DNA of 26,241 nt from assembly GCA_029932675.1 (NCBI GenBank), contig JAOZPP010000040.1, positions 1 to 26,241 on the forward strand, in the 5' to 3' direction. Origin of the DNA: a bacterium (GTDB lineage: Bacteria > SM23-81 > DAOVCL01). Position 1 is the stretch's first letter. The number at the start of each line of letters is the position of its first letter. A program made the translations under genes and the position numbers. Below, piece after piece: positions 2,304 through 25,765 of this stretch. The notes beneath the pieces are model-generated. The model had not been told where the DNA came from, ran no database searches, and was given only the letters and a program-made list of their open reading frames with translations.

Positions 2304-4295
2304 TTACTCATACCTCAATGCCTCAACTGGGTCAAGTTTTGATGCCTTGTTGGCCGGATAGATACCGAAAAAGAGCCCCACGCTTATGGCAAAAAAGAAA
2401 GCTAAGAGTATAGAACTTAAGGTGACCACTGAGTGGCCGCCAGTGCCGAAGAGATGCCTTGGCCCAATGGTGCCCGCACCGACCATCATACTTCCTATTG
2501 TATTGGCAAAGCCAATGCCTAAAATTATCCCAATCATTCCCCCCGCAAAGGCAAGAACAGCCGATTCTATCAGAAACTGGAGCAATATATCCCGCCGTTT
2601 TGCCCCTACTGCCATTCTTACACCGATCTCCCGCGTCCGTTCAGTTACAGAGACAAGCATTATATTCATTATCCCGATTCCACCGACGATTAAGGAAATG
2701 GCCGCGATACCGGCCAGCATTTGCTTGAATGTCCCTGCCGATTTCTCTATGGTTTGACGAAACTCCTCCTGACTTCTTATCCTAAAGTCCACTACTCTAT
2801 TGTGCCTCTGAGTAAGAAGGGCTTCCACCTGTTTTTCAGCCAGATCAGTGGATTCCGCTGTTCTTGTCTGCACCAGGATCTCCTGCACCTTATCGTCTCC
2901 TGTAAACCTCTTTTGTGCGGTAATAATAGGGATAAAGATCTGATCATCAAAGTCTCGCCAGCCAAAGGCCCCTTTCTCCTTCATTACGCCGATAACGGTG
3001 AACCTCTCCCCTCTTATCTTGATCTCCTTACCGATGGGCTCTTCGTCTCCAAAGAGTTCACTCTTAACGGTTTTGCCAATCACGCAGACCTTGGCCCAGG
3101 AATCTAACTCCTCTTTACCGAAGAATCTCCCCTTCTCTACCCAGTGGTTCCTCACCGCCTGATAGGCCGGTAAGGTTCCAATTACTTGAGTATCCCACTC
3201 ATTGTCGCCATACTTAGCAGCCACCCAAGTTCTCACCTCTGGAGCTACATTCTCCACCTCGGAGCAGTGCTCTCCGATAGCAATTGCATCCTCTAAAGTT
3301 AGGCCCTTCGACCTCCCCCTCCATTCCAAGGCCTGCGTTTTGTTCTCCGGTCGCCTATAGAAGACCATAAGCACATTGGAGCCTAACTTCTCTATCTGCG
3401 ATGTAATCTGCCGCTTAGCCCCTTCCCCTACCCCTAACATTCCGATGACAGCAGCTACCCCAATGACTATGCCCAGGGTGGTGAGAAATAGACGCAGTTT
3501 GTTCGCTAAAAGGGCTTTGTATCCAGAAGAAAAGCCAGTGATGAAACTTCCCCTCAGGCTTTTTCTCCCCTTGGTCCTAATCGGAAAGCTCGGTTTAACC
3601 TCTGCGGGTTTCTCGGTAGTTTCGTCTCTCTCAATCCGCCCATCTCTTATCCTGATTATCCTCTTCCCATAGGAGGCAATTTCAGGGTCATGTGTAACTA
3701 CAATAATTGTTTTCCCTTGCTTATGGAGCATATCGAATACCGACATAACCTCCTGGCCTGATTGTGAATCCAAGTTCCCTGTGGGTTCATCAGCAAGTAT
3801 TATCGACGGGCTGTTTACCAGCGCCCTGGCAATAGCTACCCTCTGTTGCTCACCCCCGGAAAGTTCATTGGGATAGTGATGTGCACGCCCCTTGAGCCCC
3901 ACGGTTTCTAAGGCCTCAAGGGCTCTTCTCCTCCGCTCCTTCTCATTTATACCAGCATAAAGCAAGGGAAGTTCCACATTACTAAGCGCAGATGCCCTGG
4001 GCAGGAGGTTAAAGGTTTGAAAGACAAATCCGATTTCCTCATTTCTGATCTCAGAGAGGACGCCGTCACTGAGCTCATTGGTGGCTTGTCCATTCAAATA
4101 GTAGGATCCAGACGTGGGTTTGGAAAGACACCCCAATATGTCCATCAGGGTCGTCTTACCTGAGCCAGAGGGGCCCATAATGGAGACAAACTCCCCCCGT
4201 TCAATCTCCAATGAGACCCCTCTGAGGGCCCAGACTACGACTTTACCCTCCCCGTAAACCTTGGTTAGTTGATCTGCCTTTATCAGCATAGTCAT
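2304..4295 (-). CDS. MacB-like ABC exporter: ATPase fused to FtsX/MacB permease
   Basis: 663 residues, the usual length of MacB. The N-terminal ATPase domain (about 4-225) has Walker A GPSGSGKTT (41-49), Q-loop Gln93, signature LSGGEQQR (145-152), Walker B IILADEP (165-171) and His202. A first membrane helix lies at about 269-289, then a periplasmic domain (about 290-530), then three C-terminal helices between about 533 and 652 with the family motif IMNIMLVSVTERTREIG...AVGAKR. Proteins of this family are mechanotransmitting ABC pumps that work from the periplasm through a MacA adaptor and a TolC channel, exporting macrolides, peptides or siderophores. The adaptor gene lies 14 bp upstream and a TolC gene before that, so a complete tripartite pump is encoded. 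A second in-frame ATG two codons in could be the start. The substrate cannot be read from sequence. Confidence 0.93.
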   Translation of the reverse strand: MTMLIKADQLTKVYGEGKVVVWALRGVSLEIERGEFVSIMGPSGSGKTTLMDILGCLSKPTSGSYYLNGQATNELSDGVLSEIRNEEIGFVFQTFNLLPRASALSNVELPLLYAGINEKERRRRALEALETVGLKGRAHHYPNELSGGEQQRVAIARALVNSPSIILADEPTGNLDSQSGQEVMSVFDMLHKQGKTIIVVTHDPEIASYGKRIIRIRDGRIERDETTEKPAEVKPSFPIRTKGRKSLRGSFITGFSSGYKALLANKLRLFLTTLGIVIGVAAVIGMLGVGEGAKRQITSQIEKLGSNVLMVFYRRPENKTQALEWRGRSKGLTLEDAIAIGEHCSEVENVAPEVRTWVAAKYGDNEWDTQVIGTLPAYQAVRNHWVEKGRFFGKEELDSWAKVCVIGKTVKSELFGDEEPIGKEIKIRGERFTVIGVMKEKGAFGWRDFDDQIFIPIITAQKRFTGDDKVQEILVQTRTAESTDLAEKQVEALLTQRHNRVVDFRIRSQEEFRQTIEKSAGTFKQMLAGIAAISLIVGGIGIMNIMLVSVTERTREIGVRMAVGAKRRDILLQFLIESAVLAFAGGMIGIILGIGFANTIGSMMVGAGTIGPRHLFGTGGHSVVTLSSILLAFFFAISVGLFFGIYPANKASKLDPVEALRYE

Positions 4296-4309
4296 AACAA
4301 GCTACACCC

Positions 4310-5728
4310 CTATCTCGGCGGTGGAGGTCCCCCCAGGTGTTTAAACCCATCCGAGCTTTGAGGCTGTAGTCCAGGAGCAGAGACCACCACTTTGTCCCCC
4401 TCCTTTAATCCTTCCTTTATCTCCACCTTTATATCATCTTCAAGTCCAGTTATTACCGGTTGAAGAACGGTTTCCCCTCCCTTTATCAGCATTACCAGCG
4501 TGTGTCCTCCTCTCTTAATAATCGCTTCCTTAGGAAGACAGAGCACATTTTTCGCCTGTCCAACGATAATATCTAAATCCGCTGTCATACCAGGTTTGAT
4601 CAATCGTAACTCCTCTGATCCTCCTTCCTTAAACTGGCTAACCGGTTTTTGTGGAGGTGGTGGCTCAGCGGGGGTGACCCCGAATTCCTTTAGCCTTCTT
4701 TGCATAAGCTTTCGGATCTCCAACCTGCTTGCACCTTGCTGGCGGAGGTTTTGGATCTCCTGCCGAACAAGGGAGCGCTGCTTCTCAGACAATTGAGCAA
4801 AGAGTCGCTCCCTTGGTAGTTTCCTCTCTGGAGCAGCCTCCTGGCCTCGTTGAGGAGCAGAACTTAAGATTTCTACCTCAACCGGATATACCACGATGTT
4901 TTGTTTAACTGTTCCTGCAGGCGCTATTTTCTTTACCCTTCCATAATAAACTTTTCCCTTCAGGGCATCAAACCCAATTTGTACTGGCTGTCCCACCTTG
5001 ACCTTGCCGATGTCAACCTCGTTTATATCGACCTTGACGATCATCTTGCTCAAATCGGCTATAGCCATAATAGTTGTCCCGCCGCCACCAAAGGCTTGAG
5101 TTCCCGAGGTGATCATCTCGCCTTCCTCCACATTGAGGTTGATCACTACGCCGGAGATGGGTGATCTGACGATTATGTTATCCAGAGTCTTCGAGGCCAA
5201 GTCCTCTGTCTTGATTGATTCAGTTTCCCCTAAGAGTAACCATAGTTGCTTTTCGGCCAGTTCGACCTGTATCTTATTGCTATTGTATGATTTTTCCGCA
5301 TCTTCGACCTCTTTCTGAGCGATAAAACCCTTTTTATAGAGCTCTCTCTTTCGTCGCAGGTTCCTCTCCGCCTCTTCCAGGTTGAGTTTTGCGCTTTTTA
5401 GGGATGCCTTAGCCTGAGCCACCTGACGGGCTTGGGAGGATTCCTGCTGGACTAAAGCCAGTTTATCTCCCCTCTCCACGCTATCCCCTTCCTCCACAAA
5501 GAGCTCCTTCACTTCGCCAGCCAGTTCAGACTTTATCTTTACTGTCGTAACCGGCTCCACCGCGCCGCTTTCAGTCACCTTAACGATTATATCCTCCCTC
5601 TTCACCAAGGTGGTCCTGAACTGTTGTTCCCGGCGGTTTTCGTTTTTTAGGGTAGTGGTATAAACGATGAATATCCCTATTATTGTGATTGCTACGCTAC
5701 CAAAGATAAAAAAATACTTCGTTTTCAT
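4310..5728 (-). CDS. MacA/HlyD-like periplasmic adaptor with a Spy-like helical insertion
   Basis: 472 residues from an ATG at 5728 preceded by AGGGGGT; an in-frame ATG at 5785 lacks this and would put extra residues before the signal anchor. Order: N-terminal membrane anchor (about 5-25), first lipoyl half (about 62-95), alpha-helical hairpin (about 98-168), second lipoyl half with 'VRSPISGVV' (187-195), beta-barrel (about 228-290), membrane-proximal domain with 'LIKPGMTADLDI' (376-387) and a C-terminal 'GLKEGDKVVVSAPGL'. Adaptors of this type link an inner-membrane pump to TolC. Unusual is an insertion of about 85 residues (about 289-373) interrupting the barrel. It contains LSEKQRSLV...RQQGAS..EI...LKEFGVTPAE, which matches the repeats of the secreted protein encoded at 8311-9246. 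The tail is proline-rich. Confidence 0.92.
   Translation of the reverse strand: MKTKYFFIFGSVAITIIGIFIVYTTTLKNENRREQQFRTTLVKREDIIVKVTESGAVEPVTTVKIKSELAGEVKELFVEEGDSVERGDKLALVQQESSQARQVAQAKASLKSAKLNLEEAERNLRRKRELYKKGFIAQKEVEDAEKSYNSNKIQVELAEKQLWLLLGETESIKTEDLASKTLDNIIVRSPISGVVINLNVEEGEMITSGTQAFGGGGTTIMAIADLSKMIVKVDINEVDIGKVKVGQPVQIGFDALKGKVYYGRVKKIAPAGTVKQNIVVYPVEVEILSSAPQRGQEAAPERKLPRERLFAQLSEKQRSLVRQEIQNLRQQGASRLEIRKLMQRRLKEFGVTPAEPPPPQKPVSQFKEGGSEELRLIKPGMTADLDIIVGQAKNVLCLPKEAIIKRGGHTLVMLIKGGETVLQPVITGLEDDIKVEIKEGLKEGDKVVVSAPGLQPQSSDGFKHLGGPPPPR
4664..4792 (-). repeat. LTxxQ/QGAS-type repeat unit inside the MacA-like adaptor
   Basis: Codes for adaptor residues 313-355. The pattern is L[ST]xxQR, about 11 residues, [RG]xQGASxxEI, about 8 residues, LKxxGxxxPE. 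The same spacing and conserved residues occur three times in the protein encoded at 8311-9246. It lies between beta-barrel strands where other MacA proteins have a short turn, flanked by charged and proline-rich linkers (about 291-308 and 356-366). This is seen directly from the two translations; its function is inferred. Confidence 0.75.
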
Positions 5729-5903
5729 CAATACCCCCTGGTCATCCTGATCTTGGCGTACCACCAGTACAAGTCTCTCTGGCATCCAAGTTAATACAGG
5801 TCAGTAGACTATTGTGCTCGTAAGGTTCCTGCCCCCATAAAACTCCCTTGGAGAGCCATATCTGCTTGCTGGAACAGAGCCTCTGAAAACTATAATTCGG
5901 TTG
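5729..5903. other. Intergenic gap between tolC-like and macA-like genes
   Basis: 175 bp without a convincing gene. On the minus strand it contains TTGACA, but no -10 box at suitable spacing. The only clear signal is the Shine-Dalgarno AGGGGGT directly before the adaptor start at 5728. I see no terminator, so the pump genes may still be cotranscribed. Confidence 0.4.
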
Positions 5904-7325
5904 TCAAAATAGACTACCAATAGTCTTCTTCAAAATGACTTTTGCTAAATGATAATCATAAATTGCACTCATATAATTTACCTTGCTGTTTGTGAGAGCA
6001 ACTTCAGCGTCGATGACTTCAGTTATGGGAGCAACTCCTGTTTTGTATCTCCCTAAAGCGGCATTATAGCTTTCTTCCGCGCTCTCCACCACTTTCTTCG
6101 TTAATTCCACCTTTTTTAGTGCGGTAACCAAGTTGAGATGCGCTGATTTAATCTCCAACTTTATTTCCTTCTCTAACTCCTCCAAGTTAAGTTTGGCCTC
6201 ATTTATATTTATCTCAGCTTCTTGAATCGCTCGGCACCTTATGCCACCGTCAAATATAGGAAAATTCAATGCGAGACCTACTCTCCAATCAGTGTTTTTA
6301 TCCCAATTACCTCGATTAACTGGAACTCCACCGAACACAAACTTATCGGCATATACATTGTAACTACCAGTGAGGGAAAGGCTCGGCCACCTCTCTATCT
6401 GGACAAGTTTTAAGTTGTTCTCCATTATGGTTAGGGTAAGCCTCTTTTGGGCAAGTTCTGGACGGTGGCTTAAGGCTTGGCTCAAACAACTATCGAGCCT
6501 TGGTGGCTTCTCCTGGACAAACCTAACAGGTTTAATCTTCAACGGAAAGTCTAAACTTAAACCCATTGCATCGTTCAACTCGGCCCTGGCCAATTCCAAA
6601 TTACCCTTAGCTTGCAAGGAGTCCACCTGAGCAGAAGCAACATCTGCCTCTGCCTTCAAAATATCAGCCCTGGGTACAATTCCTAACCCATATTTGGTCT
6701 GGGCAAAATCCAGATGTGTTCTTTTCTGGCTTAAACTATGTAGTTTAACCCTCCAAATCTCCTCTGCTTTAAGCAAATTATAATATTTCCTGGTTACATC
6801 AAGGACTAAAGAGGCCTGCGTAAGACGATACCCTTCTTGTGCTACGGACAAGGAGGCCTTCGAGTTTGATACATTAATGAGCTTTCTGCCACCGGCAAAG
6901 GGGGACATAGATGCAGAAAGTGTGAGGTTATAATGCTTCTCGTTCCATTCAAGCTCATCGTATATATTGTTCAGGGTATATCCTCCGGAGAGGTAAACTT
7001 CGGGCAAGAAGCCTGCTCTGGCATCTTTTAGGTTTATCTTGGCCTTGCTTATCTCCCCCTTGGTGATGGCTACCCTATGGGAGTTCCTCAGGGCTATAGC
7101 AATGCATTGGTTCAGGGTTAATGAATCATTAGATAGAGGTTTCAAGGTTTGCCCCTTAGGTTCCTCCGGATTGGTAAATGCCGTGGTCGGTAGCCCAATT
7201 GTTAGGCAAGCCATTAAGAGACCAACCTTCATAATGTGCTGGATGTACTGCCCAGCTTTCCTCGCTGTTGTTCTGGGTTGAACCTTCCGCAACTGGAATG
7301 CAGGAGCATTTTTAGGAGTAATCAT
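5904..7325 (-). CDS. TolC-family outer-membrane efflux channel
   Basis: 473 residues, normal for the outer-membrane efflux protein family. The start at 7325 has GGAGG six bases upstream and gives a long basic n-region before a signal-peptide core at about 33-50 (MKVGLLMACLTIGLP). A shorter start at 7232 would give a neater signal peptide but lacks a Shine-Dalgarno. The mature part opens with the typical 'LTLNQCIAIALRNSH' motif and shows two structural repeats (about 68-270 and 280-470), with long amphipathic helices such as 'ILKAEADVASAQVDSL' and the family ending 'RYKTGVAPITEVIDAEVALTNSK'. Such trimers form the outer-membrane exit duct. It precedes the adaptor and permease genes on the same strand. 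Confidence 0.92.
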   Translation of the reverse strand: MITPKNAPAFQLRKVQPRTTARKAGQYIQHIMKVGLLMACLTIGLPTTAFTNPEEPKGQTLKPLSNDSLTLNQCIAIALRNSHRVAITKGEISKAKINLKDARAGFLPEVYLSGGYTLNNIYDELEWNEKHYNLTLSASMSPFAGGRKLINVSNSKASLSVAQEGYRLTQASLVLDVTRKYYNLLKAEEIWRVKLHSLSQKRTHLDFAQTKYGLGIVPRADILKAEADVASAQVDSLQAKGNLELARAELNDAMGLSLDFPLKIKPVRFVQEKPPRLDSCLSQALSHRPELAQKRLTLTIMENNLKLVQIERWPSLSLTGSYNVYADKFVFGGVPVNRGNWDKNTDWRVGLALNFPIFDGGIRCRAIQEAEININEAKLNLEELEKEIKLEIKSAHLNLVTALKKVELTKKVVESAEESYNAALGRYKTGVAPITEVIDAEVALTNSKVNYMSAIYDYHLAKVILKKTIGSLF

Positions 7326-7385
7326 CCTCGGCCTCCGTAGAGTTACGCTTTCAGATTCTGCCAGGAAAACCCAAGCATTGCTGTT

Positions 7386-8228
7386 TTACTTGCCGGTTGG
7401 AGGCAGGGACAGCACGGTTTTCACCCAGATCTCTTGCTTTCCAGGTGGCTGAGAGCCAGGTCTATCCCCATGTCCACCCCAACCGCCCATCACACCTTTG
7501 CCTCCCCCGGGTGGCCTACCACCCATTTCCTCCCTCATGCGTTGACGGTCCTCTCTACCCATACCACCCCACTCCAATCCAAGGGAAATGGTCTGTCCCG
7601 GTTGCGTTCCAATACCATAATGGCTAATATCCCCTTTCTGCAGTGGGATGCGGAACTCATAGGTGTAGACCCCCTGAAGCACCCCAAAGCCTGCAGCCAA
7701 TCCGCTGGAACCATTGGCCGGGATGGTTGTCTCCACATTTCCTTCCTTGTTAATGACGCTAATTCTATTGGCCATCCTTGCCTCTCTTTGGAGGAAACGC
7801 TTCTTCTGTTCCGGGGTGAGGTTCTCCCAGAAGCCACCTCGGTTGCCCATTCCCGCCTGTTGCATTTCTGAAGGAGAAGGGCCACCGGTATAGCGGATGC
7901 CAAAATTCCTCTCCTTTCTGCCGGAATTATCCAACCAGATGGTTACCCCACCCATGCGAATAGCGCGCGCCCAGACTTGGTTATTGAAACGAAAGAGAAC
8001 ATAAAGGTCCTGGTTGTCATTGCACAAACCCAGTTGCACGCCGCTATCCTCAAGGTAATGTGCTGGTATACCTGTCCAATCCGTCATCTGACCATCAACT
8101 TGCATTGGATGGGCCGACCAGTGACTGGATATCTCCTGAGTCTTACAGCCGCCCAAAAGAGTTAAGCTGGCAACTATTAGAGAGAGGAGCGCTGTTGCAC
8201 TCAACCTTGTAAGATCCTTACAAGCCAT
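7386..8228 (-). CDS. Lipoprotein with carbohydrate-binding-like beta domain and LTPEQ segment
   Basis: 280 residues, start supported by GAGG eight bases upstream. A lipoprotein signal ends at Cys28 (LLGGC). Residues about 40-110 ('MQVDGQMTDWTGIP', then 'VQLGLCNDNQDLYVLFRF', then 'GVTIWLD') look like the beta-sandwich of CBM9/DOMON-like surface proteins, and the strand pattern resumes at about 165-220. Between these halves lies 'ENLTPEQKKRFLQREARM' (135-152), which recalls the LTxxQ motif of its neighbours. The C-terminal third is rich in Gly, Met, His and Arg (about 222-260), perhaps disordered or metal-binding. No ligand can be assigned. It lies 60 bp upstream of the tolC-like gene in the same block, suggesting a role in the same envelope response. 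Confidence 0.8.
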   Translation of the reverse strand: MACKDLTRLSATALLSLIVASLTLLGGCKTQEISSHWSAHPMQVDGQMTDWTGIPAHYLEDSGVQLGLCNDNQDLYVLFRFNNQVWARAIRMGGVTIWLDNSGRKERNFGIRYTGGPSPSEMQQAGMGNRGGFWENLTPEQKKRFLQREARMANRISVINKEGNVETTIPANGSSGLAAGFGVLQGVYTYEFRIPLQKGDISHYGIGTQPGQTISLGLEWGGMGREDRQRMREEMGGRPPGGGKGVMGGWGGHGDRPGSQPPGKQEIWVKTVLSLPPTGK

Positions 8229-8310
8229 TTCTTCGCCTCGTCGGTAATTGGTTAAGAATGGGGGTGACCGGAACCCCCGATCACCCCTTCAACGGATAAT
8301 GCTTGCTTAT

Positions 8311-9246
8311 CTACCTAAGCAGGATCATCCTCCCCGTGGCAGAGTAAGGGCCGGCTTCGATGCGGTAAAGATAGATGCCGCTGGAAGCGCGATTCCCGTT
8401 TGCATCGCAACCGTCCCATTGCAGGCTATAGCTACCTGCCAGATGATATCCCTCATTGAAGGTGCGGACTACCTCCCCGGTGACATTGTAGATTTTTACC
8501 CTCACCTCCCCCGGAGCAGTCAAAGTATATCTGATCTGGGTTTCCGGGTTGAGGGGATTGGGGTGGCTTTGGACGATGATCCGCGGTTCCGGAGAAGCCA
8601 TCGGGGGGGAGATTTTAGGCTCATTCTCTGGCAGTTCAATACCATAGCCTCTGAGCATCTCAGTTACTGCTTTACGGGTCTCCTCAGGGGAGGCGCCCTG
8701 GCTGTGCATCCCTTTTACCTTCTCCTGTACTGCCTTCCTCTGTTCAGGGGTGAGCTGAAATAGGAATCTCCTGGGACCATTTGGGAACCCTCTACCCCAC
8801 TTCTCCGGCACCTCGATACCATAGCCTTTGAGCATCTCGGTTACTGTTTTATGGATCTCCTCAGGGGAGGCACCCTGATCCCCCATCTCTTTCACCTTCT
8901 CCCGAAGGGCCTGCCTCTGCTCGGTGGTGAGTTGGGAAAGGAACCTCCTGGGGCCACGAGGGAAGCCCTTACCCCAGTGCTCTGGCAGCTCGATGCCATA
9001 CCCTTTAAGCATCTGGGCCACTGCGGAGTGGACCTCCTCAGGGGAGGCGCCCTGATCCCTCATCTCTGCTACCATGGACCACAGGGCCTGCCTCTGCTCC
9101 TGAGTGAGGCTGGTCCAGAGCCCCATTCTGAAATGGCCTCTATCGTCTGGAGCATTTTGGTTTTGCCCCAAGACATCGCCCGCCGGGCCGACGATGAGAA
9201 TGGCGAAAAGAACCAGGATCCCCATAAATCTCCGATACGCTTTCAT
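8311..9246 (-). CDS. Secreted protein with three LTxxQ/QGAS repeats and FlgD-like C-terminal domain
   Basis: 311 residues behind an excellent AGGAGGT. Signal peptide at about 1-27 (MKAYRRFMGILVLFAILIVG...). Three tandem repeats begin at Leu47, Leu106 and Leu165, exactly 59 residues apart. Each reads LTxEQR, helix, QGASPEE, helix, MLKGYGIE(L/V)PE, and the first two continue into WG(K/R)GFP.GPRRFL. LTxxQ is the hallmark of Spy/CpxP-type periplasmic proteins. Residues about 222-311 form a FlgD-like/type IX-like sorting domain with HPNPLNPETQIRYTL, VKIYNVTGEVV and ASSGIYLYRIEAG. In other bacteria of this kind this domain directs export or surface attachment. Probably a secreted or surface-bound Spy-like protein; the gene lies mid-operon, 9 bp after the small DUF5659-like gene. 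Confidence 0.85.
   Translation of the reverse strand: MKAYRRFMGILVLFAILIVGPAGDVLGQNQNAPDDRGHFRMGLWTSLTQEQRQALWSMVAEMRDQGASPEEVHSAVAQMLKGYGIELPEHWGKGFPRGPRRFLSQLTTEQRQALREKVKEMGDQGASPEEIHKTVTEMLKGYGIEVPEKWGRGFPNGPRRFLFQLTPEQRKAVQEKVKGMHSQGASPEETRKAVTEMLRGYGIELPENEPKISPPMASPEPRIIVQSHPNPLNPETQIRYTLTAPGEVRVKIYNVTGEVVRTFNEGYHLAGSYSLQWDGCDANGNRASSGIYLYRIEAGPYSATGRMILLR
8623..9108 (-). repeat. Three tandem 177-bp coding repeats
   Basis: Units begin at 9108, 8931 and 8754 (reading leftwards) and encode residues 47-105, 106-164 and 165-208 of the protein above. The third is shorter because it runs into the linker before the FlgD-like domain. Similarity is high at both the protein and DNA level, which suggests fairly recent internal duplication. 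Confidence 0.85.
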
Positions 9247-9255
9247 CTTGACCTC

Positions 9256-9498
9256 CTATTTGGTGGAAATTATCTTCTTTAAGTTCCTCAGTTCATTATA
9301 GAACCGAACGAAATCGCTGTTGATGAACTCTACCTTCAGTTGCTCGATCTCTCCATCGGTCTCGAAGGTAAAGTGAGCCTTTGATTTCTTTTGATCTGAT
9401 TTGATCAGGCGATAACCCTTTAGCTTTAGATAGGCCGAAAAGGCTAGGTCATCTGTGGTGATGTGATTGATCTTGATTTGATGGGATTTCTGCTTCAT
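9256..9498 (-). CDS. Small DUF5659-like protein
   Basis: 80 residues from the ATG at 9498, which has GGGGAGAG about seven bases upstream; a GTG at 9546 would add 16 residues but has no Shine-Dalgarno. The pattern 'TTDDLAFSAYLKLKGYRLI', then 'HFTFE', then 'FINSDFVRFYNELRNLKKII' resembles DUF5659 proteins, a small uncharacterised family. No signal peptide or membrane helix, so probably cytoplasmic. It is nine bases upstream of the repeat-protein gene and therefore likely cotranscribed. Its role in an envelope-stress cluster is not obvious. Confidence 0.7.
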   Translation of the reverse strand: MKQKSHQIKINHITTDDLAFSAYLKLKGYRLIKSDQKKSKAHFTFETDGEIEQLKVEFINSDFVRFYNELRNLKKIISTK

Positions 9499-9583
9499 CT
9501 GTCGCTCTCCCCTCAGTAGATTTATCTGGTTTGTGTTATCAGCCACTTGTCAGGGAAGAGTTGCTTGCCGATTTTCCTTGCGA

Positions 9584-10102
9584 TTACCTATCCTCCTTGG
9601 GGCCAAACGGGTCCTTGCGTGGGCCTTTCCCCTTCGGCCATTTATGAGCTGGTATCATTCCCCTTCCTTGAAGCCTGTGTTCAAACATTTGCAGTAGTTT
9701 CTCCCGTTGTTCCGGGGTAAGGATCGCCTTCCCCTGCAGGATACCTCTGATGGCTTCTTTCTCCAATATGATCTGTAACCCCCCAATTTCCTCGATCAGT
9801 TGATCGATCCTCCCGCTGTCCGGCTCATCCGATCTCAGCTCCTCCAGCAGTGCCTTCCTCTTCTCTCGTAATTTTAAGCGGAATTTGTCGATCTGTTTAT
9901 CGAAAGCGGCACGTTGCGCCCTCAACTGGGTAATCTGAGAATCGCTCAACGCCAACTCGTGGCGCAGGAAGTCCAATGAACAAGGAGGACCGTAAGGCCT
10001 CTTTGGTGGTCTGAACAGGCGATTGTGGAAGATGGTAACCAACGCTGATATGTTCACAATAACCAGTATGATAACCCCTAAGAGGAGCAATTTTCTTTTC
10101 AT
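9584..10102 (-). CDS. Membrane-anchored Spy/CpxP/CnrX-like periplasmic protein
   Basis: 172 residues, start supported by AGGGGT eight bases upstream. An uncleaved N-terminal helix (about 4-25) would anchor it with the rest in the periplasm. The body is almost all helix, with paired motifs LSDSQ (52-56) and LTPEQ (128-132) typical of the Spy/CpxP and 'heavy-metal resistance' (Metal_resist) families, joined by a long charged helical hairpin (about 57-125). The C-terminal tail is rich in Lys, Pro and Gly. Related proteins are ATP-independent chaperones or metal sensors that control an anti-sigma factor (CnrX). Its position 11 bp after the anti-sigma gene fits the sensor role. No clear CnrX-style metal-binding His/Met set is visible. 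Confidence 0.82.
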   Translation of the reverse strand: MKRKLLLLGVIILVIVNISALVTIFHNRLFRPPKRPYGPPCSLDFLRHELALSDSQITQLRAQRAAFDKQIDKFRLKLREKRKALLEELRSDEPDSGRIDQLIEEIGGLQIILEKEAIRGILQGKAILTPEQREKLLQMFEHRLQGRGMIPAHKWPKGKGPRKDPFGPKEDR

Positions 10103-10113
10103 AATCTATACCC

Positions 10114-10587
10114 CTAATTGTTTTGCCCTAGGCTCACATAAAACTCCCCCACAGAGCCGGCTGGGAAGTCATACAAGCTGCCTAAGTTCTCGTCGACGAA
10201 CTGCTCTACCGCACTGTTAATCTGTTCACTTGATTGGATTACCCGGGGAGTTGATAGGCTGCCAAGCTGATAGCCGAAGAAGATCCCAATCAGTATGGTG
10301 GCCAGAGCGGCAATGGGCCGCAACCAGCGCTGTCCATCTCGAGCAAGGGGTAGAGCCCTCTTCCCTTCAGCCGCGCTAATCCGCTGTTCTAACCTCGTCC
10401 AAAAAAGGGGTGAGAGTTCAATCCCGGTGGGCTCCTCCCAGGCTTGCCAGGCCTGAGTAAACCCCTCCACCAAATCTGTACACCTGTTACAAGTTTGCAG
10501 GTGGGCCTCGATCCTTTTCCTTACTTCTGGCGGAAGTTGTCCTTCAACGACCCCAACCAGATTTTTTCGCACAAATTTACAGTCCAT
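10114..10587 (-). CDS. Anti-sigma factor with zf-HC2 zinc finger and one membrane helix
   Basis: 157 residues. The N-terminal zinc-binding motif has Cys3 and H29-x3-C33-x2-C36 ('HLQTCNRC'), the ZAS/zf-HC2 signature of anti-sigma factors. A single membrane helix lies at about 91-109, leaving about 48 residues outside. Such proteins hold an ECF sigma factor at the membrane until an envelope signal releases it. The partner sigma gene lies 60 bp upstream. That gap carries a second copy of the predicted ECF promoter element, so anti-sigma and downstream genes may be induced separately from the sigma gene. Confidence 0.9.
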   Translation of the reverse strand: MDCKFVRKNLVGVVEGQLPPEVRKRIEAHLQTCNRCTDLVEGFTQAWQAWEEPTGIELSPLFWTRLEQRISAAEGKRALPLARDGQRWLRPIAALATILIGIFFGYQLGSLSTPRVIQSSEQINSAVEQFVDENLGSLYDFPAGSVGEFYVSLGQNN

Positions 10588-10610
10588 CCCTTCTCATCCT
10601 TTCATCTTAT

Positions 10611-10640
10611 TTGACACCCCCTCCGGTCAAAAACTTGCGG
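10611..10640 (-). promoter_or_regulatory. Predicted ECF sigma promoter, copy 2 (before anti-sigma gene)
   Basis: On the minus strand CCGCAAGTTTTT, 11 bases, GTGTCAA. Both boxes are identical to copy 1 at 11273-11302 with the same spacing, while the 11 bases between differ. Counting from GCAAG to GTGTC the gap is 16 bases, the usual -35/-10 distance of ECF promoters. It ends 23 bases upstream of the anti-sigma start codon. Confidence 0.7.
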
Positions 10641-10647
10641 CTTATCT

Positions 10648-11223
10648 TTAAATCCGGTCTATTAGGGGAAGTAACTTTTTCTGCAGGTTAAGCTTTGCCC
10701 GATGTATCAGTGATTCCACTGCAGCCAGAGAGGTGCCTAAAACCTCGGCGATTTCCTGATAGGAAAGCCCCTGGTACTTGTGCAGGGTTATTGCCGCCCG
10801 TTGCCTTTCCGGTAGAGCATCCAAGGCCAAACTTAGGATTCTCTTTCTCTCCTTGCTTTCTATCACCCTATCTGGCCTATCTTCCGTCTCTGTCTCAAAG
10901 GGATAAGCGTTCCCACCCTCTTCCTGCTTCCAAAAGGCAAAAATATCTAAAAATCGATCCCACTTCCGCTTGCGGCGCCAGTTCAGGGAAAGATTGACTG
11001 CTATGCGGTAGAGCCAGGTGGAGATCTTCGATTCGCCACGGAATCCCTTGGCTTCTTGATACACTTTGATGAAAACCTCTTGGGCCACATCCTCAGCATC
11101 TTGCCTGTTGCCGAGTAAACTATAACATGTGCTTATAACCAGGGTTTGGTAGCGCTCGACTAAAGTTTTGAATGCAGTATGATCTTTCGCCGCAATTTTT
11201 TTAATCAATTCATTATCGTTCAT
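10648..11223 (-). CDS. ECF-type RNA polymerase sigma factor (RpoE/SigW-like)
   Basis: 191 residues with only sigma regions 2 and 4, the ECF layout. Region 2 (about 15-88) includes 'DAEDVAQEVFIKVY' (42-55) and 'KISTWLYRIAVNLSLNWRRK' (66-85). Region 4 (about 131-185) includes 'LDALPERQRAAITLH' and the helix-turn-helix 'LSYQEIAEVLGTSLAAVESL'. It is the first gene of the nine-gene minus-strand block and is followed by its likely anti-sigma factor. An identical bipartite element lies about 50 bp upstream of this gene and again before the anti-sigma gene, suggesting autoregulation. Confidence 0.95.
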   Translation of the reverse strand: MNDNELIKKIAAKDHTAFKTLVERYQTLVISTCYSLLGNRQDAEDVAQEVFIKVYQEAKGFRGESKISTWLYRIAVNLSLNWRRKRKWDRFLDIFAFWKQEEGGNAYPFETETEDRPDRVIESKERKRILSLALDALPERQRAAITLHKYQGLSYQEIAEVLGTSLAAVESLIHRAKLNLQKKLLPLIDRI

Positions 11224-11272
11224 AGAACCTTGAGATTGTGATGGAGCAAAATTTAATTTTCCATCTAAATAA

Positions 11273-11302
11273 TTGACACAAAAGGCAAGGAAAAACTTGC
11301 GG
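11273..11302 (-). promoter_or_regulatory. Predicted ECF sigma promoter, copy 1 (before sigma gene)
   Basis: Minus strand CCGCAAGTTTTT, 11 bases, GTGTCAA, located 49 bases upstream of the sigma factor start. It shares 19 of 19 box positions with copy 2. The plus-strand TTGACA inside it is not followed by a -10 box at usual spacing, so it is not a good sigma-70 promoter. The assignment to this sigma factor is inference from repetition and position. Confidence 0.7.
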
Positions 11303-11462: not shown

Positions 11463-11672
11463 TAACCCTGACCTTTGGCATCTCCAAGAAATCTCCAAGG
11501 GTGAGGGGATATTTGCAGTTCCGCACTCATGGTTATGCATAGGTGCGGAATTCAAGGGGTAAAAGCAAAGCCATCCAAGCAAGGGGAGAATTGCGGAACG
11601 CCAGAGGAGCGAGGGCCCCTAAGGAAAAATAGCGGGCGCAGCAAGCTAAGTCACTTTACTTGGAGGATGATC
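11463..11672 (+). other. Structured 5' leader of the PAP2 gene
   Basis: About 210 nt between promoter and start codon without a convincing gene. TTCCGCAC (11519-11526) can pair with GTGCGGAA (11543-11550), while GTTCCGC (11518-11524) can instead pair with GCGGAAC (11593-11599), so two exclusive folds exist. GAATTC/GAATT and GGGG/CCCC tracts add further pairing. No known riboswitch class is recognised; GCAAAGCCA at 11565 recalls the GEMM core but the rest does not fit. Confidence 0.4.
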
Positions 11673-12575
11673 TTGATAGGATTAAGTAAGACAAACAAGG
11701 AGAGAGCGCCATTTCGTCCTGTAGATATTGCCACTATTTCCTATGTGGTCTTGATGGGGACACTCATCCTCTTCTTTCACCAGAATCTAAGGGCTTGGGG
11801 GGGATATGTCTTCATCCACTACTTCTCTTCCCTTCTCATCTACCTTTTTTTGCGCCAATCCAGGAGGTTCAAGTCTCCCATTTTGATATTTCTCAGGGAT
11901 TGGTATCCAGTGCTCTTATTAGCCCCTATGTTTGAGGAGTTGGGCAGGATAACCACCATCCTCTTCCCCTACTGGGCAGAGGTTCCCCTGATGAGGCTTG
12001 ATCACCTCATATTTGGAGTACATCCCACTGTTTGGTTTGGTAAAATCGCTCGCCCTTGGCTTACCGAATATATGGAGTTTTCCTACTTTATGTATTTTCT
12101 GCTCATCCCCATTGGCGGTTTCCCCTTATACTTTAGGGGAAAAAGAAACGAGTTCAATAAATTTCTCTTCAATGTCCTCTTAGCCTATTACATCTCCTAT
12201 ATTGGATTCCTTTTCTTCCCGGCCAGAGGCCCATGGGAGACAATGGTGGGACTCCACTCTGCCCCCTTGACCGGAGGATTTTTTTTAGGCTTGGTAAGAG
12301 ACATCCAGGCCATGGGCTCAATTCATGGAGGATGTTTCCCCAGTTCCCATGTGGCTGCCGCCTTTGCTGTCCTTTTCTCGGCAAAAAGATATGAAAAACC
12401 TATCTTTTGGGTCCTCCTCCCTATAGTTTTCAGCTTAGCCATTGCCGTAGTCTACACCCGCTACCACTATGCGGTGGATTCCATAGCTGGGGCACTTGTA
12501 GGAACAGCCTGTGCCTTTGTGGGACCGAAGATCAGCAACAAATGGGAAAATCGAGGGCTACAGAAACAGGAGTAA
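11673..12575 (+). CDS. PAP2-family integral membrane phosphatase/transferase
   Basis: 300 residues from a TTG at 11673, which has GGAGG at 11662-11666 with six bases between. An ATG at 11667 abuts the Shine-Dalgarno, so TTG is preferred. About six membrane helices. Conserved PAP2 residues are PSSH (223-226) in 'GGCFPSSHVAAAFAV' and TRYHYAVD (262-269), whose His265 and Asp269 are the usual catalytic pair. The layout is closer to the inositol-phosphorylceramide-synthase/Aur1-like branch than to classical PgpB. It probably handles lipid phosphates or head-group transfer on the periplasmic face. It converges with the MFS gene, six bases apart. Confidence 0.83.
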   Translation: MIGLSKTNKERAPFRPVDIATISYVVLMGTLILFFHQNLRAWGGYVFIHYFSSLLIYLFLRQSRRFKSPILIFLRDWYPVLLLAPMFEELGRITTILFPYWAEVPLMRLDHLIFGVHPTVWFGKIARPWLTEYMEFSYFMYFLLIPIGGFPLYFRGKRNEFNKFLFNVLLAYYISYIGFLFFPARGPWETMVGLHSAPLTGGFFLGLVRDIQAMGSIHGGCFPSSHVAAAFAVLFSAKRYEKPIFWVLLPIVFSLAIAVVYTRYHYAVDSIAGALVGTACAFVGPKISNKWENRGLQKQE

Positions 12576-22393: not shown

Positions 22394-22720
22394 ATGATTA
22401 GAAAGTTGTGGGTTGGCCTGCTGGTTTTGGTGATTGTAGTCGGCTTGGCTTCCAGCTTCTGGTTAAAGCCAGCACAGGCCAACACCGGGGATGAGCGTCG
22501 GGTAATGCTCTGCGCCGCCGAGCCGTGGGATGATGATTTCCCTGGGGCGAATAACCCTTCTCCTCCTGATACTTCAGGACTAAGCCCCACTGGGACTCAG
22601 GTCAAGATGCAAAATGCTCAACAGAGTTCTCCCCCTAAGAAGGCTGATTCCAGAGCCAGGAACTTTTTCCACCGCATCCTTCATACCCTCTGGGGAATGA
22701 TCTTCCCCGAATCATTCTGA
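22394..22720 (+). CDS. Small exported protein of unknown function
   Basis: 108 residues, start supported by GAGGTGA seven bases upstream. A clear signal peptide (about 1-29; MIRKLWVGLLVLVIVVGLAS...) ends at PAQA, giving a mature protein of about 79 residues. The middle is rich in Pro, Ser and Gly and looks disordered; the C-terminus (about 87-108; FFHRILHTLWGMIFPESF) is an aromatic, amphipathic helix. Two tryptophan-containing short motifs and one Cys are present. I recognise no family. It is 12 bp upstream of the TPR regulator, after a shared promoter and leader, so the two are almost surely cotranscribed. A peptide-signal role is possible but unproven. Confidence 0.75.
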   Translation: MIRKLWVGLLVLVIVVGLASSFWLKPAQANTGDERRVMLCAAEPWDDDFPGANNPSPPDTSGLSPTGTQVKMQNAQQSSPPKKADSRARNFFHRILHTLWGMIFPESF

Positions 22721-22732
22721 GAGGAGCCCAAG

Positions 22733-25700
22733 ATGAAAGCTGAAAGCTACGGGTTCAAGTCGTCGGTAAAATCAGCAGAGGCTCTCTTTCGGAGAGGCGA
22801 GATTGCCCAGGCATTGGAGGTCTATCAGAGGGTGAGGGAGGAAAATGGTTCCTCGATAAGTGCCACCACCTTAAATCTACTGAAGAGGAAGGAGCTTGAT
22901 TGTCTGCAGAGGCTGGGCAGGTATGAGGAGTGTCTGAAGGCAATAGCGGAGCTGAGACCCTTCTATGAATTTGAAGGGGATACAAGGCAATTGGGATGGG
23001 TGCTTTCCCTGAAGGCTTATTGTCTCAAGCAGTTGAGCAGGTTAAAGGAAGGTAAACAAGCAGCCGAAGAGGCGAGGGAACTCCTCAGAAACACGGCCCA
23101 TAATCTGGAGTACGGTGTTGCCCTTAACACGCTTGGGAATATCTATATGGGTCTTGGTAATCTAAGGGAGGCCAAGAAGTTATTGATGTATAGCATTCCA
23201 GCCTTTGAGAGGATTTCACCTATTCCCTATGGGAAAGTTATCAGTTCGCAGAACCTTCTGGGTCAGGTATGTTTTATGAGGGGGGAGACTAAGGAAGCGT
23301 TGGCGCATCTCAATGAGGCTCTGGAGCTTTGTAAGGATGTGGACAGCAAGGCCCAGGAGGCAATGGTTAAGGGAAATCTGGGCATTGTGCATCGTCGTGC
23401 TGCTATAGATTGGCCATTAGCCTCCAAGATGCTGAAGTCAAGCCTGAAGCTATCTGAAGAGCTGAATGACCCCTTGAGGATTGCCAGAAAGCTAACAGCT
23501 CTCTGTAGGCTCTATATCCTGCAGAGGAGATGGGATAAAGCCTCGGAAATTTCTGAGCTTTTGGAACGGGCTCAGAAGTTGGCCCAAGAGGGAGGGTATC
23601 AGAGGGAGTTGGCCACAGTCTGGGAGACAAGGGGCTGGTGGGAGATGGCCCTGGCCCAGCGGGAGGGTGGCTCTCATTTAGGGGCAGCAGAGCAGGCTTT
23701 GATACAGGCCCTGCAGATTGGCCAGCGGATAGCCCCCCAGGGCGATATAGTGATGGAGGCAAGTGAGAGGTTAGGCTGGGTCTGCCTTATGCGGGGCAGC
23801 CTGGAGGGTGCTTTAAGCTATGGGGAGCGCAGCCTGCGCATCGCCCGACATATAGGCTCGGTTTATGATGAAGGGCTGGCCCACAGGCTCTTAGGGGCAG
23901 TCTATCAGACCAGAGCAGAGACAAAAACCGAGAGGCGAAAGGCGAGGGATCACCTTGCCCGCAGCATCTCCCTTTTGGAGGAGGCAGGGGCTCGGTATGA
24001 CCTGGGGATAAGTCTCCTTTACAGTGGAAGCCTTCTGGTTAAGGATGGGGACTTTCGCCCTGAGGGGGAGAGGCAGTTGCTGGAGGCTGGGAGGGTATTT
24101 GAGGAACTCAAGCTCAGCTACTGGCTGGGAAGGTGCATTGCCCAGAGGGCTCGGGGGTTGATCCTGGATAACCGCTTGGACAAGGCCAGGGAGGCTCTTG
24201 AGAGGGCAAGGTCGTTGCTGGAGGAGGCTGGAGAGGGGGAGGCCTTGAGGGAAGTTGAAGAGGTGGAGGCCCAATGGGAGGGGGCCTCTGGTCAGGCGAT
24301 TGCCCAGGCCAGGGAGGAGCAGGAGCTTTTGGAGAGGTTGGGGCAGACATCTGTTGAAGAGCTGGGTAAGCTCCTCCAGGAGGTGGCCCAGAGGGTAGCA
24401 GCTCAGCGGGGGCTTATGGGATACAGGGGCAGTAAGAGGATGGTCTTAGGAGGACATTGGGGGATGAAGGAGGGAGAGGCCAGGGAGCTTCTCCAGGAGC
24501 TGGTGGATGGGGAGGTGCTTAGGCCCAGGCAGGCAGTTATCTCCACTTTCGGCTCAGAGGATGCGAGGTTTCCCTTTCTGAGGGGCAGGGGGATAACCAG
24601 CCTGATGTTTGTTCCCTTTGGGTTAAACAGCAAGGTAGAGGGACTTCTCTATCTGGACAGGAGATCAGGGGGGCCCTTTCGGCAGAGGGAGATGGATTTC
24701 TTTGTGCGGGCAGCAGGGATGTTGCAGTTTAAGGTGGTGGAGTTTCAGAGGGATGAGCTCCTTCGGGAGAACCTTCTGCTCAAGGAAAGGCTGGAGGAGG
24801 AGTATGGCTTTGGCAACATAGTCACTGTCAACCCCAAACTGAAGCAAGCTCTGCGGACTGCTCAAAGGTTCAAGGATTCCGGACTTCACATTCTCCTCCA
24901 GGGGGAGACAGGGACCGGAAAAGAACTTTTGGCCAGGGCCATTCACTATAGCAGCGAGAGGAGGGGAAAAAAGTTTGTGCCGGTAAACTGTGCCGCCTTC
25001 ACCGACACCCTTTTGGAGAGCGAGTTCTTTGGCCACAAGAGGGGTTCCTTTACCAATGCCCTTCAGGACAAGAGGGGGCTTTTTGAGGAAGCCGATGGGG
25101 GGACCTTGTTCTTGGATGAGGTAACCAATGCCAGTGAGGAGTTGCAGGCTAAGCTGTTGCGGGCGATAGAGGAGATGGAGGTAAGGAAGGTAGGGGAGAC
25201 CAGATCTAAGAAGGTGGATGTGCGGATAATTGGGGCCACCAACAGGGACCTGGGGGAGATGGTAGAGGCTGGTAAATTCCGCAAGGACCTCTACTACAGG
25301 CTCAAGGGGGTGGAGATAGAGCTACCTCCCTTAAGGGAGAGGAAGGAGGATATCCCGCCGCTTATCAACCATTTCCTCAATCTCTCTGCCCAGAAGGGAG
25401 GGGGGAGGATAAAGGGGGTAACCCAGGAGGCGATGGAACTTCTTGTTGCCTATGACTGGCCGGGGAATGTGCGGGAGTTGAAGAACGAGGTGGAGAGGGC
25501 AGCGGTCTTAGCCGAAGGTGGCTGGATTACTCCAGAGCATTTGTCCAAGGAGGTAAGGGCAGGAAACCCGAGGTCCTCTGAGGAGATATTTAGCTTTACA
25601 CTGGAAGAATCCCCGAAAGAAGTGATGGAGAGGTTAGAGAGGCAGCTCACGGAGTCTATCCTCCGGAGGTGTAATGGCAATAAAACGAAGGCAGCAAAGC

Positions 25701-25765
25701 TTCTGGGGCTTACGCGTGAGGGGTTGTTTAAAAGGCTAAGGAGATATCAAGCCCCCCAAGTGTGA
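22733..25765 (+). CDS. TPR-GAF-AAA+ sigma-54-type transcriptional regulator with Fis HTH
   Basis: 1010 residues; GAGGAG Shine-Dalgarno upstream. The N-terminal half (about 10-540) is an array of tetratricopeptide-like helical pairs ('GVALNTLGNIYMGLGNLREAKKL', 'AHLNEALELC', 'VCLMRGSLEGALSYGERSL'). A GAF-like domain (about 545-680; 'SLMFVPFGLNSKVEGLLYLDRRSGGPF') and a linker helix follow. The AAA+ domain (about 700-930) has Walker A GETGTGKE (724-731), Walker B 'GGTLFLDEV' and arginine-finger region 'FRKDLYYRL'. The sigma-54 contact loop is GSFTNA (771-776) instead of GAFTGA. A Fis-type helix-turn-helix ends the protein ('NKTKAAKLLGLTREGLFKRL'). It probably activates sigma-54 promoters in response to a protein or peptide bound by the TPRs. 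Its targets are not visible in the window. Confidence 0.93.
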   Translation: MKAESYGFKSSVKSAEALFRRGEIAQALEVYQRVREENGSSISATTLNLLKRKELDCLQRLGRYEECLKAIAELRPFYEFEGDTRQLGWVLSLKAYCLKQLSRLKEGKQAAEEARELLRNTAHNLEYGVALNTLGNIYMGLGNLREAKKLLMYSIPAFERISPIPYGKVISSQNLLGQVCFMRGETKEALAHLNEALELCKDVDSKAQEAMVKGNLGIVHRRAAIDWPLASKMLKSSLKLSEELNDPLRIARKLTALCRLYILQRRWDKASEISELLERAQKLAQEGGYQRELATVWETRGWWEMALAQREGGSHLGAAEQALIQALQIGQRIAPQGDIVMEASERLGWVCLMRGSLEGALSYGERSLRIARHIGSVYDEGLAHRLLGAVYQTRAETKTERRKARDHLARSISLLEEAGARYDLGISLLYSGSLLVKDGDFRPEGERQLLEAGRVFEELKLSYWLGRCIAQRARGLILDNRLDKAREALERARSLLEEAGEGEALREVEEVEAQWEGASGQAIAQAREEQELLERLGQTSVEELGKLLQEVAQRVAAQRGLMGYRGSKRMVLGGHWGMKEGEARELLQELVDGEVLRPRQAVISTFGSEDARFPFLRGRGITSLMFVPFGLNSKVEGLLYLDRRSGGPFRQREMDFFVRAAGMLQFKVVEFQRDELLRENLLLKERLEEEYGFGNIVTVNPKLKQALRTAQRFKDSGLHILLQGETGTGKELLARAIHYSSERRGKKFVPVNCAAFTDTLLESEFFGHKRGSFTNALQDKRGLFEEADGGTLFLDEVTNASEELQAKLLRAIEEMEVRKVGETRSKKVDVRIIGATNRDLGEMVEAGKFRKDLYYRLKGVEIELPPLRERKEDIPPLINHFLNLSAQKGGGRIKGVTQEAMELLVAYDWPGNVRELKNEVERAAVLAEGGWITPEHLSKEVRAGNPRSSEEIFSFTLEESPKEVMERLERQLTESILRRCNGNKTKAAKLLGLTREGLFKRLRRYQAPQV

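Follow-up and report, generated by a model that had tools for sequence, protein, structure and literature searches.

A candidate envelope-stress operon linking an ECF sigma, anti-sigma and Spy-like module to a MacAB-type efflux pump

Contig JAOZPP010000040.1 (assembly GCA_029932675.1; 26,241 nucleotides, analyzed whole and hereafter called the window) comes from a bacterium of the SM23-81 lineage. It carries nine genes on one strand that run from an extracytoplasmic function (ECF) sigma factor to a complete TolC-MacA-MacB pump. We consider it probable that these genes form one envelope-stress operon, in which a Spy-sensed sigma switch drives its own operon including the pump. Across bacterial genomes, triads of sigma factor, anti-sigma factor and Spy-like protein recurrently lie beside a tripartite pump, and the window's MacA shares an inserted repeat with another protein of the operon.

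The window is the entire contig 7 of a 3.03 Mb genome that is 97% complete. Its open reading frame (ORF) map places nine ORFs, all on the minus strand, across 11223-2304 in the order ECF sigma, zf-HC2 anti-sigma, Spy/CnrX-like protein, DUF5659 protein, secreted LTxxQ-repeat protein, lipoprotein, TolC, MacA and MacB (Table 1). Successive genes are separated by 60, 11, 37, 9, 82, 60, 118 and 14 bp, with the widest gap at the tolC/macA junction. The gap of 37 bp grows to about 85 if the DUF5659 gene begins at an ATG near 9498. Judged from the DNA, this is the better-supported start, with a good ribosome site before it and a product of about 80 aa. Upstream of the sigma gene lies a divergent gene for a PAP2 protein (11529-12575), and the ORF past macB (896-2185) is convergent; therefore, the nine-gene unit is well bounded. 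No terminator-like site was found on the minus strand from 11285 to 2716. Given the small gaps, the lack of such an internal site and the opposed flanking genes, a single operon spanning 11223-2304 is plausible.

A first-pass annotation, made from the letters of the window, had described nine same-strand genes from an ECF sigma factor to macB, and ORF positions and domain matches bear this out. Pfam and NCBIfam matches also confirm the families it gave for the sigma factor, the anti-sigma factor, the Spy/CnrX-like protein and tolC-macA-macB. Its gene list was right in location and families but left the DUF5659 protein, a real gene, unnamed. Its mention of several extra LTxxQ proteins was overstated: three repeats lie in a single secreted protein, another lies within MacA, and the lipoprotein has an isolated LTPEQ.

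Table 1. Features of the nine-gene unit in the window
Feature	Position	Strand	Basis
ECF sigma factor (RpoE/SigW-like), 191 aa	10648..11223	-	Pfam Sigma70_r2 E 1.5e-20, Sigma70_r4_2 E 1.4e-19; NCBIfam sigma70-ECF above cut-off
Membrane zf-HC2 class I anti-sigma, 157 aa	10114..10587	-	zf-HC2 E 4.6e-7; Hx3Cx2C and C-terminal motif conserved in alignment
Anti-sigma periplasmic tail motif FPAGSVGEFY	10138..10167	-	Alignment of Spy-adjacent anti-sigmas
Transmembrane-anchored Spy/CnrX-fold periplasmic protein, 172 aa; proposed sensor or titratable co-inhibitor	9584..10102	-	Metal_resist PF13801 E 1.8e-15, LTXXQ E 3.7e-5; fold matches
DUF5659 small protein	9256..9546	-	PF18903 E 5.8e-10
Secreted repeat protein	8311..9246	-	Signal peptide; three LTxEQR...QGASPEE...GYGIELPE repeats; FlgD_ig E 3.8e-13; type IX secretion system (T9SS)-type C-terminal sorting tail
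Lipoprotein (LGGC lipobox), CBM9/DOMON-like beta-sandwich	7386..8228	-	Predicted fold; relative in KSB1 genome G004
TolC-family outer membrane channel	5904..7325	-	OEP E 2.4e-67
MacA-like periplasmic adaptor; second Met is the likely start	4310..5785	-	HlyD_D23 E 8.2e-23, RND_mfp E 4.4e-45 (over cut-off)
LTxxQ/GAS repeat inserted in MacA, aa 324-370	4676..4816	-	Homologous to the secreted protein's repeats
MacB full-length (ATPase, permease, periplasmic core), 663 aa	2304..4295	-	MacB_PCD E 3.6e-51, ABC_tran E 1.8e-33, FtsX E 2.4e-21

Recurrence of the switch beside efflux pumps

An alignment of Spy-like proteins was searched in 386 genomes and gave matches in 190. About 100 neighbourhoods were fetched and annotated by hidden Markov models (HMMs) built for this analysis, and 32 of these loci contained a sigma, anti-sigma and Spy triad. 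Among the 23 triads with enough downstream sequence to be assessed, 8 had a co-directional MacB or resistance-nodulation-division (RND) pump gene within 7 kb downstream. Upstream of the triads, a pump on either strand was found in 1/25. As controls, 40 loci yielded 27 ECF/zf-HC2 pairs without Spy, and none of the 19 assessable pairs was linked to a pump (Fisher P = 0.004). When the seed loci L030 and L032 were dropped, the linkage was 6/21 (P = 0.014). The pump density of the control DNA predicts a linkage of about 1%. Thus the conservation of the neighbourhood in relatives, which the first-pass annotation had proposed to examine, is borne out for the module and a tripartite pump.

Where Spy gene and pump set are linked they are usually close, with gaps of -4 to 137 bp in 10/14 cases. 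MacAB linkage occurs in families f1, f2, f22, f40, f88, f150, f166 and f199 and RND linkage in f114; the pairing is present in at least eight other bacterial families. On the Spy tree the pump label is clustered yet occurs in several lineages, with 7 changes; none of 500 shuffles was that low. Such a pattern is expected if module and pump stay joined for long times but can part.

Several observations weigh against our reading. Fifteen of the 23 triads have no pump. When loci are collapsed to families and the seeds excluded, the comparison with the direct control is weak (3/18 versus 0/17, P = 0.12). Counting looser triads as well, in which the sigma or anti-sigma gene is cut or undetected, gives 5/20 versus 0/17 (P = 0.036). 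Both of these family-level counts, which were tallied by hand, are unlikely by chance against the background pump rate. Two genomes, KSB1 G004 and Gemmatimonadota G061, hold most of the regulatory and accessory genes with no pump nearby, which indicates that the output need not include a pump. A search for an ECF promoter motif with four two-box patterns in the DNA upstream of 28 sigma genes showed no clear excess, which leaves self-regulation presumptive. Finally, the anti-sigma tail pattern described below was defined on the very triads in which it is counted.

In family f114, the triads of three loci (L099, L101 and L102) lead directly into genes for a MacA-like adaptor and for two RND proteins in tandem that resemble an MdtBC pair. 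This arrangement recalls the co-control of Spy and mdtABC in E. coli.

The anti-sigma tail and the Spy-like protein

The anti-sigma factor is built of a zinc finger, a single strongly hydrophobic, transmembrane segment and a periplasmic tail. The motif at the end of this tail can be written P(x)xS-hydrophobic-G/A/S/P...Y. A strict pattern of this motif was found in 12/43 Spy-adjacent anti-sigmas and in 0/27 controls (P = 0.0014), and a looser pattern, counted on the Spy-adjacent proteins only, in 16/43. Both patterns were derived from triads, and the control count is the informative half of the comparison. These data suggest that the tail may be the target of the Spy cradle.

Related modules were seen elsewhere. 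The window's genome and a congener share a second cluster (G000:C69:1919-4052, L027; G001:C151:6204-8316, L034) of an ECF sigma, a protein with a transmembrane segment and two Spy-like genes beside an MreB-like gene. Its putative anti-sigma has no zinc finger, and no pump was seen nearby. At three loci of family f8 (L146, L122 and L038), two ECF/anti-sigma pairs lie less than about 3 kb apart, one with Spy and the tail motif and the other without.

The Spy-like protein has a membrane anchor at its N-terminus. Its AlphaFold2 model has a mean predicted local distance difference test score (pLDDT) of 78.9, with about 90-96 in the helical core. Foldseek matched the model to CnrX, CpxP, ZraP and Spy with a probability of 1.00, yet with E-values of just 0.03-0.1. 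VIA-align gave Z 11.8 for ZraP (79 residues, root-mean-square deviation (rmsd) 1.7) and Z 10.8 for CnrX (103 residues, rmsd 2.2), scores to be read with caution because helical bundles readily reach middling Z. Sequence profiles concur with this fold, matching the Salmonella VirG-like protein STV (1.2e-8), Spy (2.8e-8) and ZraP (3.2e-7).

If the operon served metal resistance, the Spy/CnrX-like protein would bind periplasmic metal and signal as CnrX does for nickel and cobalt, and the pump would export metal or metal-damaged components. Metal_resist is indeed the protein's best Pfam family, CnrX is among the top fold matches and the gene plan resembles cnrYXH-cnrCBA. However, CpxP, Spy and ZraP match the model about as well as CnrX, and the fold does not single out CnrX. 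Aligned to the CnrX sequence given under PDB 2y39, the window's protein has a gap, R, R, G and G at the positions of the CnrX metal ligands, which we take to be H42, H46, E63, H119 and M123. A CnrX-like ligand set is conserved in none of the eight aligned Spy-like proteins, whose N-terminal alignment is loose. The pump, moreover, is of the ATP-binding cassette (ABC) MacAB type and not a heavy-metal RND pump. Because the ligands are absent, nickel or cobalt sensing is unlikely, and we rejected the protein as a metal sensor; metal resistance as the role of the whole operon seems to us quite improbable. For the signal, damaged envelope protein sensed in the manner of Spy/CpxP is a better guess.

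The pump and its accessory proteins

The window's MacB matches solved MacB structures (5lil, 5gko and 5nik) over its full length at 1e-133 to 1e-130. All three pump proteins fall under the NCBI equivalog cut-offs, with MacB at 529 bits against 966 and MacA at 109 against 342. Judged by these matches, the pump is MacAB-type and not an enterobacterial orthologue.

The insert in MacA follows the pattern LTxxQ...QGASxxEI...FGV and, across 47 aligned columns, shares 38% identity with the repeats of the secreted protein (E = 6.6e-7). Its HMM score is 18.9 bits, compared with 9.6 for the best of 1109 scored local shuffles. In a search of 6075 ORFs, significant matches to the repeat were found only in relatives of the secreted protein and in the window's MacA. 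MacA therefore shares a domain with an operon neighbour, which independently supports the view that the genes function as a unit.

The sorting tail of the secreted repeat protein is of T9SS type A, scoring 32.6 bits on TIGR04183 against a cut-off of 23. The host genome also has a gene for SprA_N of the T9SS translocon (E = 1.4e-37), the only T9SS part searched for. Tail and translocon gene together make export of the repeat protein to the cell surface probable. The lipoprotein sequence matched no Pfam family, and no PDB entry above chance. Its model, with a mean pLDDT of 70.5 and 80-90 in the core, resembles carbohydrate-binding modules of the CBM9 type (Z 12.8 over 153 residues, rmsd 3.2; Foldseek 7e-6), and related DOMON-like heme domains match too. 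No match to the lipoprotein was found in the congener G001. An eight-row lipoprotein alignment was too divergent for use as a scan query. Relatives of the lipoprotein have MacAB-TolC genes nearby in f55, f150 and f172, and RND pumps nearby in L089 and L082. At L088 (8944-16912), a Spy-like gene and a relative of the CBM9 lipoprotein precede three large proteins with matches to the window's repeat protein, probably via the FlgD/T9SS-type tail. This suggests that the Spy/CBM9 pair also serves surface-protein loci.

G003, from the window's phylum, has the complete set in a rearranged order with a split MacB: sigma, anti-sigma without zinc finger, Spy-like, TolC, MacA, MacB ATPase, MacB permease, DUF5659, repeat protein and lipoprotein. 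In KSB1 G004, the sigma, anti-sigma, two Spy genes, DUF5659, a FlgD-tailed protein and the lipoprotein are colinear with the window, and there is no pump. The window and G004 are 62% identical in the lipoprotein and 78% in DUF5659, but just 43% in the housekeeping GTPase Der. Therefore, the sigma/Spy/DUF5659/lipoprotein block has probably moved between phyla.

Such a transfer raises the question of mere adjacency, in which a horizontally acquired island of sigma, Spy, DUF5659 and lipoprotein genes landed next to an independent macAB-tolC operon. The identities to G004, its lack of a pump and the position of the widest gap between tolC and macA would all fit. However, at least eight other families show the pairing too, with pumps of both the MacAB and the RND kind, and G003 has it in rearranged form; MacA and the secreted protein also have a repeat in common. 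We regard adjacency as very unlikely.

Alternatively, MacAB-TolC, the CBM9 lipoprotein and the T9SS-tailed repeat protein could be a machine dedicated to export or assembly at the surface, whose cargo the sigma module would check for quality. The insertion of the secreted protein's repeat in MacA, the SprA gene and the joint occurrence of DUF5659, repeat protein and lipoprotein in G003, G004 and the window speak for such a unit. The MacA insert was seen in the window only, however, and G004 has the accessory set without the pump, and on these grounds we think a dedicated export unit unlikely.

Elsewhere in the window, the contig begins within a 23S rRNA gene, followed by a 5S rRNA gene and the ORF at 896-2185, a beta-propeller-like lipoprotein whose true start is probably further in. 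All of these (1-2185) are convergent with the sigma/pump operon. At 22394-25765, a small secreted-looking ORF of 108 aa precedes a 1010-aa protein that, by eye, reads as a tetratricopeptide repeat (TPR)-rich AAA+ regulator of the sigma54 type, with a Fis-like C-terminus but lacking a receiver domain.

Proposed mechanism, precedents and significance

Under the envelope-stress reading that we favour, the membrane zf-HC2 anti-sigma would hold the ECF sigma in unstressed cells. The anchored Spy/CnrX-fold protein would recognise the short periplasmic tail of the anti-sigma and keep the complex shut. Misfolded protein or an amphipathic toxic compound filling the periplasm may then compete for the Spy-like cradle. 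The tail would thereby become free or exposed, the anti-sigma would either release the sigma or be cleaved, and transcription of the operon by its own sigma would follow. The additional Spy-like protein would serve both as a buffer and as feedback. Products of the DUF5659, repeat-protein and CBM9-lipoprotein genes would rise together with the pump, and TolC-MacA-MacB would clear the offending peptide, lipid or drug out of the periplasm. In a bolder version, which we offer tentatively and think rather doubtful, the repeat set in MacA, the secreted repeat protein and the CBM9 lipoprotein touch each other as an envelope machine. Spy-like sensor, pump and surface proteins would then read and clear one ligand, and the tail motif would be a pseudo-client that signals whether the Spy cradle is occupied.

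Among experimentally studied systems, the closest to the triad is cirYZ-spy of Phocaeicola vulgatus (2026), in which an ECF sigma, an anti-sigma and a co-transcribed Spy form one operon (PMC13114119). Deletion of cirZ there induces cirY, spy and downstream genes, one of which encodes a predicted carbohydrate-binding hydrolase (PMC13114119). Both systems have the sigma, anti-sigma and Spy-fold genes in that order on one strand (with gaps of 60 and 11 bp in the window). In contrast, the genes described for CirYZ-Spy include no efflux pump, DUF5659, CBM9 lipoprotein or T9SS-tailed repeat protein. The first-pass annotation had called the window's system a candidate new one; CirYZ-Spy softens this, as the triad itself was already known.

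For a triad plus pump, the nearest precedent is CnrYXH-CnrCBAT of Cupriavidus metallidurans, where CnrYX holds CnrH and controls the pump (PMC4803752). The two share an ECF sigma, a membrane anti-sigma, a membrane-anchored sensor of the CnrX fold and an adjoining tripartite pump. The window's anti-sigma, however, is class I (zf-HC2, Hx3Cx2C), whereas CnrY is a short class II protein (the distinction is set out in PMC7406223). The window also lacks the CnrX metal ligands, has extra genes and encodes an ABC pump (MacB_PCD/FtsX/ABC_tran) in place of the RND pump of Cnr. With anti-sigma class, metal ligands and pump class all different, the operon is Cnr-like in plan and is not a Cnr system. The first-pass annotation had drawn this parallel, noting the differences in anti-sigma and pump class, which our domain matches support. 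Its parallel also stands for the anchored protein with the CnrX/CpxP/ZraP/Spy fold, but is not supported for metal sensing.

In the Bae response of E. coli, spy and mdtABC are under one envelope-stress regulator. Similarly, CpxR drives cpxP and mexAB-oprM in P. aeruginosa (PMC5063474). Cpx and Bae thus couple a periplasmic LTxxQ protein to a tripartite pump through a common regulator, as we propose here, but they are two-component systems rather than sigma/anti-sigma pairs and their pump genes lie outside the same operon. The macrolide/peptide pump MacAB-TolC likewise has a full-length MacB, a MacA-like adaptor and a TolC-like channel in one operon; the window's version differs in the LTxxQ repeat inserted in MacA, the linked sigma module and the sub-equivalog scores. 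Full-text literature searches found no report of an ECF/zf-HC2/Spy/MacAB operon, a context that the main ECF classification (10.1093/nar/gkaa1229) may already list.

Taken together, the pairing of switch and pump looks like a real but little-described route to efflux induction on envelope damage, a sigma-factor counterpart to the Cpx/Bae control of pumps. The anti-sigma tail motif offers a concrete short peptide as the candidate target of the sensor. These data indicate that the CnrX plan extends beyond metals and RND pumps, and suggest that many poorly studied bacterial families may switch on tripartite efflux via a Spy/CnrX-fold sensor acting on a zf-HC2 anti-sigma.

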